Shown here one piece after another: positions 8,981-21,720 of a stretch of DNA of 21,720 bases (within the stretch, counting starts at the first letter, position 1; the number at the start of each line of letters is the position of its first letter). Under the pieces are notes generated by a model. The model did not search any database and had not been told where the DNA came from. It was given only the letters and a program-made list of their open reading frames with translations. Position numbers and translations under genes: made by a program. Source of the DNA: a virus. Location of the stretch: the IMG/VR virus record IMGVR_UViG_3300011114_000659, positions 1 through 21,720 of that record, one strand, 5' to 3'.

Positions 8981-9823
8981 TTACTCTGACCAATCGTAAT
9001 CAGCAACATAAGCTTCTTTTGTCATTATCTTTTGTTTCACAAACCTATCGCAAGCAGCTTTAGCTTCAGGAGGAAGATTCTGATAACTCTTTGCAGGGCC
9101 ACCAGCAGATCGACCCCTACCACTACCGGACTCGGCCCCGTAGTTAGGAGTACGCTTTTCCTTCTCACCAAACTTCTGAGGCAATTCTTCCAGAAGTACT
9201 TCATCTAATTTGTCCAGAAAAGCCTTGCCGGTAAGTCCCGGATTCTCCCTACGGAGAACTTCTCCAAGAGCGTTAGTCTGGGCTGTAAGCCTAGCGTCTT
9301 TGCCAAACCATTCATTGCCACTCAACCAAGTCTGTAAAGCCGGATCTACTGCTACGGTTCCTGTGTTCCTAGTAACAGTTACAGCTTCTTTAGCACTAGC
9401 TTTAGCTGCTTGAAGATCTTCCTTCAAGCCATCAATCATATCGTCTACAGCAGTTACCTTGGTTCCATCCCCATCCGTAATGGCTTGGCTACGGGCAGAC
9501 TTAAGAGCAACAATCTGACCTTCAAGGTCAGAAGCTTTTCGCTCATAAGACTCTTTCTGGAACTTCTTAAACTCCTCAGTTGCCTGACGAAGTTCGTTCA
9601 TGCTGGCTTTAGTGTGATTAAGTTCTTTTAGCAGGTTCTCATTGTTCTTTCGCAAAATGGGCAGGATCTCCCTACCCCGCTTTACGAACGTCCCTGCATC
9701 AACCCAATCCTTCTCATCGCCCCGGAATTTTTCCTTGGGCACCCAGCCTTGACCTGACGCCTCACTGACTACAGCAGGATCAACTCCACTTTCTTCTTGA
9801 CTTTGGTTCTCATTCTCAGCCAT
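8981..9823 (-). CDS. Capsid scaffolding protein
   Basis: 280 residues, acidic and highly helical, with TAGGAG 8 nt before ATG. The N-terminus is disordered (MAENENQSQEESGVDPAVVS). Residues about 60-150 are coiled coil (LRKNNENLLKELNHTKASMN onward, then EGQIVALKSARSQ and LKEDLQAAKASAKEA). A Gly/Ser/Arg-rich linker (GAESGSGRGRSAGGPA) leads to a short C-terminal helical domain (PPEAKAACDRFVKQKIMTKE). This layout is that of phage scaffolds, where the C-terminal helices bind the capsid protein and are released or recycled. The location just before the capsid genes agrees. It should form the procapsid core with the portal. I see no protease domain. Confidence 0.8.
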   Translation of the reverse strand: MAENENQSQEESGVDPAVVSEASGQGWVPKEKFRGDEKDWVDAGTFVKRGREILPILRKNNENLLKELNHTKASMNELRQATEEFKKFQKESYERKASDLEGQIVALKSARSQAITDGDGTKVTAVDDMIDGLKEDLQAAKASAKEAVTVTRNTGTVAVDPALQTWLSGNEWFGKDARLTAQTNALGEVLRRENPGLTGKAFLDKLDEVLLEELPQKFGEKEKRTPNYGAESGSGRGRSAGGPAKSYQNLPPEAKAACDRFVKQKIMTKEAYVADYDWSE

Positions 9824-18148: not shown

Positions 18149-18192
18149 GCGGCCCTATACGCAATAACACCAACCAAAAGGAACTAATATGA
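18145..18192 (+). CDS. Possible 15-aa leader or micropeptide
   Basis: AAAGGAG lies 8 nt before ATG, and the frame MSGPIRNNTNQKELI exactly bridges two genes: its start overlaps the stop of the 157-aa gene (ATGA) and its stop overlaps the start of the next gene (ATGA). This could simply be a coupling device carrying ribosomes to the 84-aa gene, or a real micropeptide. Its length is too short to judge by codon use. Confidence 0.4.
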   Translation: MSGPIRNNTNQKELI

Positions 18193-18443
18193 CACAAGCA
18201 TGGACACGTAAGGAAGGTAAAAACCCCAAAGGTGGGTTAAATGCCAAAGGTAGGGCTTCGTATAACGCAGCTAACCCCGGTAAACCGGGCTTGAAGCCAC
18301 CTGCTCCTCATCCAAAAACAAAAAAAGATGCTGCTAGAAGAAAATCTTTCTGTGCAAGAATGAGTGGAATGCCGGGGCCAATGAAGAAACCGAGTGGCAA
18401 GCCCACCCGTAAAGCTCTGTCCTTGAAAGCATGGAATTGCTAA
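18189..18443 (+). CDS. Basic phage protein of the GKNPKGGLNxKGR family (DUF6321-like)
   Basis: 84 residues, very basic. W-T-R-K-E-G-K-N-P-K-G-G-L-N-A-K-G-R-A-S-Y-N at the N-terminus and K-S-F-C-A-R-M-S-G-M, then K-A-L-S-L-K-A-W-N-C at the C-terminus, are the hallmark of a small conserved phage family I remember as DUF6321. It is found in many virulent marine and freshwater phages. Function is unknown. The high Lys/Arg/Gly/Pro content suggests nucleic-acid binding, which is inference. AAGGA precedes the ATG. The terminal Cys and the Cys in SFCARM are conserved in the family as I recall it. Confidence 0.75.
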   Translation: MTQAWTRKEGKNPKGGLNAKGRASYNAANPGKPGLKPPAPHPKTKKDAARRKSFCARMSGMPGPMKKPSGKPTRKALSLKAWNC

Positions 18444-19588: not shown

Positions 19589-20020
19589 ATGGAAGAAAGT
19601 GAATTGTACCAAGCAGCAACTAATAGCCTAGCATCTGATGCGAGTAGTGAAAATTGCTACTCAAAGATGGCTAACGAAACCAACGGCTATTGTGGAGATT
19701 ACAAAAGCTTTGAGAAAGACCTCAAAAGCATTGAGGTTCGTATTAAGTCTGAATACAAGATTACGTCTATGCCTAGTGCGTGGCGTAGTGCCAAGAGTGT
19801 TTTGGTTAAATGTATGAAAGGTGGTGTTGCCATATTCAACAGCAATGACACGCTGAAAGGCAAAACTGAACTTCAGAATGAGTTGAAAACCGATGTTTCG
19901 GCAGTTGGAAAGTATGCTACGTGTGAAAAACATGTTCATTTAGCATCTAGAGTTTTCAAGTTTTTGTCTTTGACTGAACAAGCTGTAATTAGAAACCTCA
20001 TTAACGACACATTTAAATAA
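19589..20020 (+). CDS. Protein of unknown function preceding the VWA gene
   Basis: 143 residues with GAGGT upstream of ATG. It is mixed charge and probably helical, with Lys-rich stretches (KSFEKDLKSIEVRIKSEYKI), S-M-P-S-A-W-R-S-A-K-S-V-L-V-K-C and a C-terminal helix (FLSLTEQAVIRNLINDTFK). The motif T-S-M-P-S-A-W-R-S-A-K seems familiar from other phage proteins of unknown role. It ends one base before the next start, so the two may form a functional pair. In several phages a VWA protein is paired with an AAA+ ATPase; this is not one, as no P-loop is present. Confidence 0.68.
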   Translation: MEESELYQAATNSLASDASSENCYSKMANETNGYCGDYKSFEKDLKSIEVRIKSEYKITSMPSAWRSAKSVLVKCMKGGVAIFNSNDTLKGKTELQNELKTDVSAVGKYATCEKHVHLASRVFKFLSLTEQAVIRNLINDTFK

Positions 20021-20021
20021 A

Positions 20022-21720
20022 ATGATAACCAATTCCATAGAGGTAATGAAGTACGTAAAAGCCTCAGCCGGGAGAAGCAAGTTGTCTGTTGTTTTTGAAG
20101 ATAAGAATCATCCCCGGCATGACGGTTCTACTATATATCTACCAAAAATAACTGTTCACACTACTAAAGAACAGTTGTTAGAGATGATGTCTAGTGTTGA
20201 CCATGAAGTAGGTCATGATTTGGATAGTGACTTTGAAATCCTCAAAGAGAAAGGTATTGATGCTTCCAGCAGTTCGTTAGGACTGATTTGGAATCTTTTA
20301 GAAGATTCAAGGGTTAACTACCTTCAAGCAGTAGAATACGAAGGTTTCAGGGAACTCTGGGAGAAAACAACTCCCAAATTAATAGAGAAAATAGATGAAA
20401 GCACCCAGAAACCTGAAGGCGTTAATCCACTAATCCGAGCCATAATGAAGTGGGAACATGAGTTGTCGCGTAAAACATTCCCACTTTGTGCAGAAGCTGT
20501 TCAGGACATGGAAGTTGACCCTAGTATTTATACAAAGTTGCTTCCATTCTCAGACAGGTTGGTGAATGTTCAGAAAGTTAAGCCCAAGGTTGCAGGTACC
20601 AAGGGTGCTTGGGAACTTGCTAGGGACATCTTCAGAGCTTTAGGTGGAGATCCCGATGAAGAAGAACGTAAAGCAAAAGAAAAGAAAAAAGAAAAAGCAA
20701 GTAGTGGCAGAGGTGTCCTCAAAGAAGCTTCTTCTGAAGAAGATGGAGAAGATAAAAAGAAGCCTGTAGATGGTAAAAATGAAGAAGATGGAGAAGAAGC
20801 GGAAGATGACAAGGATTGGTCTATAGTCCGTGTTAAGTCTAAAGACCTTAAAGACGTTGCAGACAAGCTTTTGTCCCTAGACAGTGTGGATCGTAAGAAG
20901 ATGTCCAAGGTAGGTCTGTTGTATGAAGTAGATGACTTGGAAGATGGTTGGACAATGACTGCTTTAGAAGATTTTATTGTTGTGGATTACTGCAATAAAA
21001 CTGTTAGCCACCCTGAAGTTGTAAATCTTTTGAGTGATAGTAGCAATGAATACTTTCTAGACAGTATTACAACTAGAGCTAGTGTGTTAGCACAAGAGAA
21101 CTTTGCAAATCAAGTTCGCAGGTTGATTCAAATCCGGGCTAAATCCAACTTTGAATATGGTGTAAAGCGTGGTAAATTGGATTCTAGCCGATTGAGTCGT
21201 GTTGCTCTTAGACAACCGGGCTTTAGTGAGCGTGTGTTTAAGAACAAAATCAACAATACTGTTTTAGATGCTTCGGTATCTATTCTTGTTGACATGAGTG
21301 GGTCTATGAGTGGTGATAAAGTACTTTTTGCTGCTCAAGCAGCTTTGTTGCTCAACGATGTATTCCAAGTTATTCAAGTTCCTTTGGAAATCATTGGGTT
21401 TACAGACAAAGGCGATAAACCAATACAATATCTGTACAAACCTTTTAATAAACACAAAGTAGTACGGGAACAGTTGTTAAGTTATTTTGCAAGTAGTAGT
21501 CACTGCATGTCTGGAAATCCAGATGGTGACAGCATTATTTGGGCTTATGATCGCATTAAAAATAGAACAGAAAAGAAGAAGCTTCTTATTGTGATGTCTG
21601 ATGGGCAACCAGCAGCTTCTAGGTACAATAAAGGCTTGGGTAAGTTTACAAAGCAAACTGTTAAAGAAATTGAAGCTTCTAGAGTTGAGATTTATGGGTT
21701 GGGTCTTTGTGATGAATCTG
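20022..21720 (+). CDS. Phage CobT/N4 gp25-type protein with HExxH motif and VWA domain, partial at right edge
   Basis: The frame opens at ATG 20022, one base after the previous stop with no ribosome site, so coupling is assumed; an in-frame ATG at 20046 has GAGG only 2 nt ahead. It is open to 21720 (566 residues, no stop). Residues 61-65 are H-E-V-G-H, a zincin-type HExxH. L-L-E-D-S-R-V (92-98) matches the L-E-D-x-R element of CobT and NorD-like proteins. Residues about 211-265 are a Lys/Glu-rich linker. A VWA domain begins near 415: D424-M-S-G-S is the MIDAS DxSxS, and V-M-S-D-G-Q-P supplies the later Asp. Such phage proteins usually work with a MoxR/CobS-type AAA+ ATPase, which would be beyond the edge. 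Function in phages is unknown. Confidence 0.85.
   Translation, partial: MITNSIEVMKYVKASAGRSKLSVVFEDKNHPRHDGSTIYLPKITVHTTKEQLLEMMSSVDHEVGHDLDSDFEILKEKGIDASSSSLGLIWNLLEDSRVNYLQAVEYEGFRELWEKTTPKLIEKIDESTQKPEGVNPLIRAIMKWEHELSRKTFPLCAEAVQDMEVDPSIYTKLLPFSDRLVNVQKVKPKVAGTKGAWELARDIFRALGGDPDEEERKAKEKKKEKASSGRGVLKEASSEEDGEDKKKPVDGKNEEDGEEAEDDKDWSIVRVKSKDLKDVADKLLSLDSVDRKKMSKVGLLYEVDDLEDGWTMTALEDFIVVDYCNKTVSHPEVVNLLSDSSNEYFLDSITTRASVLAQENFANQVRRLIQIRAKSNFEYGVKRGKLDSSRLSRVALRQPGFSERVFKNKINNTVLDASVSILVDMSGSMSGDKVLFAAQAALLLNDVFQVIQVPLEIIGFTDKGDKPIQYLYKPFNKHKVVREQLLSYFASSSHCMSGNPDGDSIIWAYDRIKNRTEKKKLLIVMSDGQPAASRYNKGLGKFTKQTVKEIEASRVEIYGLGLCDES

Follow-up and report, generated by a model that had tools for sequence, protein, structure and literature searches.

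Phage CobT-like proteins carry a conserved zincin-type HExxH motif beside a CobS-like AAA+ partner and may belong to a protein-cleaving or protein-remodelling machine of phage replication

In many tailed viruses, two paired genes bear the routine annotation of vitamin B12 'cobaltochelatase' subunits. cobS is among the listed core genes of cyanophages (PMC3037559), and phage papers have treated it as an auxiliary gene for vitamin B12 (PMC11705849, PMC11288001). Liu et al. suggested that CobST of viral origin makes use of the host's CobN, and they called 'peptidase' a misannotation of cyanophage cobT (PMC8651126). In PMC11288001, phage cobT was credited with what another enzyme called CobT does, activation of the lower-ligand base; CRP-810 is subject to this confusion of two CobT enzymes in that paper, and the label 'dimethylbenzimidazole phosphoribosyltransferase' on a protein of Escherichia phage Cyrano (H30, OV696614.1 44433-45137) apparently reflects it as well. 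In group 2.2 jumbo phages, Iyer et al. 2021 reported a MoxR-vWA pair carrying an N-terminal metallopeptidase, for which they suggested a part in virion maturation as a chaperone plus protease (PMC7824862). In NorQD, a finger of the VWA domain inserts into the AAA+ pore and the linker is stretched (PMC13036017). Wss1 and the AAA ATPase Cdc48 clear protein from DNA (PMC4559962).

The window, that is, the whole stretch of DNA analyzed here, comprises 21,720 bases of a virus record (G000), and its last gene is a CobT-like ORF on the + strand that runs off the 3' end (feature 20022..21720). The ORF itself (20022..21719) starts with ATG, encodes 566 aa, and is open at its 3' end; it is incomplete because the record ends at base 21720, and ~32 C-terminal residues fall past the contig end. 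Complete relatives are found in L003 (8001-9797, 598 aa, 95% identical) and L002 (594 aa, 78% identical). Pfam returned CobT_C (PF11775, 1.7e-18) plus a weak VWA match and nothing else, and PHROGs returned the unnamed family phrog_1576 (1.2e-47) and 'aerobic cobaltochelatase CobT' (5.8e-33). The window protein is a divergent phage 'CobT', with a zincin-like N-terminal domain, a charged linker, and a VWA/MIDAS domain, and all the parts given below lie on the + strand. As the preliminary description had noted, HEVGH at residue 61 and a full MIDAS occur in one protein: HEVGH spans residues 61-65 (20202..20216), DMSGS residues 424-428 (21291..21305), and SDG, the second MIDAS loop, residues 526-528 (21597..21605). 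D424, S426, and S428 were kept in every viral, isolate, and bacterial sequence (100%), and D527 was kept in 98/99 viral, 10/10 isolate, and 31/31 bacterial proteins. The linker, at approximately residues 206-300 (20637..20921), is probably flexible: its 95 residues include 28 D/E and 19 K, and the model has a pLDDT of <50 at 232-262 and 279-288. We infer the position of a probable VWA 'finger' with a GKLD motif at approximately residues 372-411 (21135..21254), a region that aligns with the NorD VWA of the solved NorQD and in which G384 is invariant among 99 sequences.

AlphaFold2 modelled full-length L003 CobT with a pLDDT of 86.9, using a 99-row alignment. Since fold searches with the whole model were swamped by VWA domains, the N-terminal domain (residues 1-228; 20022..20705) was folded separately, again from L003, and reached a pLDDT of 95.7 and a pTM of 0.91. 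HEVGH lies on a predicted helix at residues 49-68, and N-x-x-E-D (residues 91-95; 20292..20306) lies on a predicted helix at residues 85-105. The VWA domain was structurally most similar to NorD in its complex with NorQ (Z 20.7) and to the MIDAS of Rea1 (Z 18.3). For the N-terminal domain, at least 14 zincins were among the 50 VIA matches listed, all of them weak (Z <5), including ArdC, selecase, abylysin, PprI, and M1 and M61 peptidases; this enrichment of zincins among the matches is suggestive only. A Foldseek search of the same domain against the PDB gave nothing significant, with zincin matches at E >1, and BFVD matches at <1e-3 were phage CobT/VWA proteins or unnamed. Separately, AcrIIA26 (PDB 9zq6_B, residues 21-87), an anti-CRISPR with a reportedly novel fold, matched positions 71-135 of profile A6, covering the N-x-x-E-D helix, at E 1e-4, which may reflect chance or the exaptation of a fragment.

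An HExxH motif would arise by chance in a protein of such composition with a probability of ~0.012, as estimated from composition and from 20,000 shuffles. We take it not to be a chance occurrence because it is conserved, rather than on account of that ~1% probability. H61, E62, H65, N91, E94, D95, and R97 were invariant in 69/69 close relatives, namely, 67 complete proteins retrieved with a VWA-motif-only search pattern together with those of L002 and L003. Among 99 non-redundant viral proteins, with identities to L003 as low as ~19% and many at ~20%, the residues singled out in the preliminary description (H61, E62, and H65) held in 99/99, and E94, D95, and G108 were the other invariant N-terminal-domain columns; these viral sequences were partly collected with patterns containing DHE and ED, and HExxH counts that rest on those patterns are biased. 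Sets free of this bias were used as a check: the VWA-only scan, isolates from whole-protein tblastn, and CobS-neighbour proteins. H61, E62, H65, and D95 occurred together in 8/10 distant isolates, whose tblastn matches fall almost wholly in the VWA part, and in 7/7 proteins found solely via a CobS-like neighbour gene. The latter were four annotated cyanophage 'peptidases', one unannotated marine relative, gp57 of the haloarchaeal virus HVTV-1, and gp75 of the Gordonia phage UBSmoodge.

D95 was present in 114/114 sequences with HExxH versus 2/33 without it, and the corresponding counts for E94 were 112/114 and 33/33. D95 is kept without E94 in ICP2 (HECYH, VVD) and Reynauld (HEIAH, ADD). Because E94 persists in all sequences that have no HExxH, D95 appears to belong to the metal site rather than E94, and co-variation thus disfavours E94 as the third ligand. 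D95 is the probable third metal ligand, and on the question of a third zinc ligand to HEVGH, strict co-variation across sequences points to this conserved acidic partner. Two CobT-like proteins have no HExxH but keep the rest, including the MIDAS and the CobS neighbour: those of Pseudomonas phage hairong (L005:6717-8792, SEIAK) and Stenotrophomonas phage ANB28 (L009:5840-7822, REVST). They may be natural protease-dead variants, and cleavage is therefore not required in every lineage. That two phage lineages survive without HExxH would suit a NorQD-like chaperone for metal insertion or remodelling, in which the HExxH domain holds metal or grips a client and cuts nothing; the nearest solved VWA is indeed that of NorD with NorQ, for which PMC13036017 describes metal insertion by twisting. 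However, E62, a glutamate of the catalytic type, is as invariant as both histidines across 114 sequences, and simple metal binding would need no E62. We consider a chaperone of this kind unlikely and favor a zincin-type metallopeptidase domain.

True cobaltochelatase CobT proteins differ precisely at these residues. HExxH occurred in 0/31 chelatase-type CobT proteins, an alphaproteobacterial set that includes bacterial genomes carrying the phage-type pair, whereas the MIDAS was intact in 31/31. Position 61 was A/S/Q/G, position 62 was mostly hydrophobic, and position 65 was R/K/Q, with all three changed in 31/31; D95 was missing in 30/31. When the motif columns were left out of the tree, the chelatase clade formed a single branch (SH-aLRT 100), and HExxH was lost three times, separately in the chelatase clade, hairong, and ANB28. 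As the tree is unrooted, loss in the chelatase clade is the parsimonious reading and falls short of proof. Against the CobT equivalog TIGR01651 (cut-off 759), phage CobT scored 84.9 bits and the chromosomal CobT L245 scored 989; the phage partner scored 125 bits against the CobS equivalog, versus an NCBIfam cut-off of 559. CobN (PF02514) was found in 0/40 phage records, some of them fragments, and was absent in 2/5 carrier bacterial genomes, those of Buttiauxella gaviniae and Kluyvera sichuanensis, which carry an SSU5-type pair. The control genome of Caulobacter vibrioides matched PF06213 and not PF02514, which hints at a bacterial CobT without CobN.

These data bear on the proposal that the pair is a B12 auxiliary metabolic gene, with viral CobST and host CobN together raising cobalt insertion and cobalamin supply (PMC8651126). 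The phage pair is homologous to CobT and CobS, and many hosts have CobN, including all three of the remaining carrier genomes tested (Ectothiorhodospira, Faunimonas, and Ancylobacter). Yet phage CobT retains the motif that is gone from every chelatase-type CobT tested, CobN accompanies the pair neither in the phage records nor in the Buttiauxella and Kluyvera carriers, both phage proteins score far under the equivalog cut-offs, and Faunimonas holds its own chelatase-type CobST besides the phage-type pair. The data on phage CobT point opposite to the proposal of Liu et al. (PMC8651126), and we judge a B12 role very improbable. The 'chelatase-like' part of the preliminary description is not supported either: the zincin residues are those that chelatase-type CobT lacks, and CobN is missing from the phages and two carrier bacteria. 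It is more likely that the phage pair is not a cobaltochelatase or B12 auxiliary gene, and a protein-cutting or remodelling machine is likelier than a vitamin gene because the viral 'CobT' keeps a zinc-protease-type motif that the chelatase lost.

A MoxR/CobS-type AAA+ gene, for which the preliminary description had proposed looking past position 21720, was sought in relatives and found immediately downstream of CobT in L002 and L003. The AAA+ ATG at 9790 of L003 overlaps the CobT stop at 9795-9797, which suggests that the two genes are translationally coupled there. A CobS-like gene lies ≤1.5 kb from 150/153 CobT genes, the other three loci being not assessable; the partner is an AAA_5, CobS-like gene, and VWA/MIDAS and MoxR-clade AAA+ genes are adjacent in 150/150 assessable loci. 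The genomic case for an AAA+ partnership of the CobT-like protein is strong. The earlier suggestion of a metal-dependent enzyme or a remodelling adaptor is supported. In L003, the genes after CobT encode, in turn, the CobS-like AAA+ protein, a Toprim primase, a helicase resembling DnaB, an M15 peptidase, a DNA polymerase of family A (PolA), and a 5'-3' exonuclease; the M15-type (endolysin-like) gene (L003:13566-14015) is set within the replication module, in the helicase-polymerase interval. Four annotated cyanophages share the order gp46-CobT-CobS-gp45-gp44, in which gp45/gp44 are clamp and clamp-loader genes. Primase, helicase, polymerase, or ligase genes are near the pair in ICP2, SSU5, hairong, RHph_X66, RHph_N1_10, ANB28, and T5S1, and a primase or primase-helicase is near it on L175, L143, and L168. 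CRP-810 and two related contigs (L140 and L211) carry an integrase near the pair in place of polymerase genes. In HVTV-1, a SprT-like metallopeptidase gene (gp65; L283:1276-1992) precedes the CobS-like gene by ~2 kb.

The same three-part plan would also fit a virion-assembly machine that acts as a chaperone and processes structural proteins, the role suggested for the jumbo-phage metallopeptidase-vWA and MoxR pair (PMC7824862), and N4 gp25, with DUF2201_N and a VWA-like domain, has HExxH and an adjoining ATPase gene. In the window, however, the large structural-type genes (portal-/terminase-like by position and size) are on the strand opposite CobT, and across lineages the pair sits with replication genes. 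We give a role in virion assembly little credence, and it is this conserved setting with primase, helicase, polymerase, and clamp genes that leads us to a replication-linked role. PADLOC defence models gave no match among the CobT-like proteins, and a known anti-phage defence system was set aside on that result.

The small gene upstream of CobT, which the preliminary description had put forward as a third component, encodes a 143-aa protein with an MPxxWRSxKS motif (19589..20020, + strand); it ends at 20020, one base before the CobT ATG at 20022. It was found at 76 CobT loci, nearly always ≤20 bases upstream, and homologues outside the window family were found neither in phages nor at other CobT loci. 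Because of this confinement, it is not a general third component; as a possible component specific to the window's freshwater family, the idea survives. Another small gene (AWTRKEGKNPxGGLNAKGRASY) is upstream of CobT in the window (18189-18443) and downstream of the helicase in L002 (13086-13385) and has thus been relocated within the family.

Motif conservation and co-loss, partner adjacency, the lack of CobN, and the replication context, all features read from the sequences, are consistent with a zincin-VWA adaptor that is driven by a CobS-like AAA+ ring and remodels or cleaves proteins during replication, rather than a B12 auxiliary gene. We hold this reading with somewhat better than even confidence. 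In such a two-protein AAA+ machine, the CobT-like protein would be the subunit that handles the substrate, its C-terminal VWA/MIDAS domain docking on a hexameric ring of the CobS-like (MoxR-clade) protein encoded by the next gene, with the VWA finger probably inserted into the AAA+ pore, as happens in NorQD. At the N-terminus, the protein would have a small zincin-type metallopeptidase domain with H61, H65, and probably D95 as ligands and E62 as the general base. By analogy with the NorQD cycle (PMC13036017), cycling of the CobS-like ATPase may present substrate to the zincin domain: ring motion powered by ATP would exert a pull or twist on the charged linker, delivering a protein substrate to the zincin site, where it may be cleaved or forcibly remodelled. 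Such activity could serve phage DNA replication or the clearing or processing of proteins on DNA. Metal binding, proteolysis, ring docking, and the replication role itself are what we infer from these features. A broader claim, that phage CobST represents a widespread zincin protease of the replication apparatus, driven by AAA+ and with an aspartate ligand (like Wss1/SPRTN with Cdc48), that CobT derives from it by loss of the protease site, and that the marine-phage 'cobS/cobT' category is largely misassigned, is tentative and somewhat doubtful.

tblastn detected CobS-like genes in 526 phage records, mostly cyanophages. If 'CobT' cleaves or remodels replication proteins, B12 metabolic inferences drawn from phage cobS need revision, a widely distributed phage machine gains a testable active site (H61, E62, H65, and D95), and the cyanophage 'peptidase' label that PMC8651126 called a mistake would be nearer the truth than 'CobT'. 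The jumbo-phage MoxR-vWA and N4 gp25 precedents mean that the architecture is already known. Thus, the preliminary description's word 'undescribed' applies in part: phage CobST was known as putative B12 genes and the jumbo-phage metallopeptidase-vWA with MoxR had been described (PMC7824862), and what appears to be new here is the application of that plan to the CobT/CobS family, together with the strict contrast with the real chelatase. The two were not found in the open literature searched, although a specialist paper may hold both.

Among known systems, the phage pair shares with cobaltochelatase CobT/CobS (PF06213, PF11775, TIGR01651, TIGR01650) full-length homology (profile A5 matched the solved CobT 9uka at 1.2e-85), the same MIDAS, and a paired AAA+ CobS; it differs in that the chelatase has no HExxH and the phage pair has no CobN and falls far under the equivalog cut-offs. 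The jumbo-phage MoxR-vWA pair (PMC7824862) has the same architecture and also occurs in phages, but it is tied to virion assembly, its description does not mention CobS, and it may be of the CobT or the DUF2201 type. N4 gp24/gp25 (PF13203, PF09967, and an ATPase) likewise combines an HExxH domain, a VWA-like domain, and a neighbouring AAA+ gene: gp25 (L287:5165-6304) matches the putative metallopeptidase DUF2201_N at 3e-87, has a VWA-like domain and an adjacent ATPase gene, and has relatives in 642 phage records. RefSeq labels N4 gp25 'HNH endonuclease', a label shared by several related phage proteins. Profile alignment with phage CobT places HExxH on HExxH and NxxED on NxxxD, weakly (hhalign probability 22-61%). 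Unlike phage CobT, the gp25 type is shorter and has no charged linker; the window protein had no match to PF13203 or PF09967 up to E 1, and none of 58 alphaproteobacterial genomes had a DUF2201 family match above the cut-off. NorQD (MoxR AAA+ plus the VWA protein NorD; 9qh6, 9qh8, 9qhd) shares a VWA at Z ~20 and the layout of N-terminal domain, linker, and VWA, whereas it inserts iron into nitric oxide reductase, and the available part of its description reports no zincin domain. Minigluzincins and ArdC/SprT/Wss1-type zincins likewise have a small domain in which a ligand helix comes after the HExxH helix; they match phage CobT at Z <5, and phage CobT has instead a probable Asp ligand, a VWA fusion, and a MoxR partner. 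By analogy, and with no claim of membership, Wss1/Cdc48 would be the functional parallel of phage CobT/CobS.
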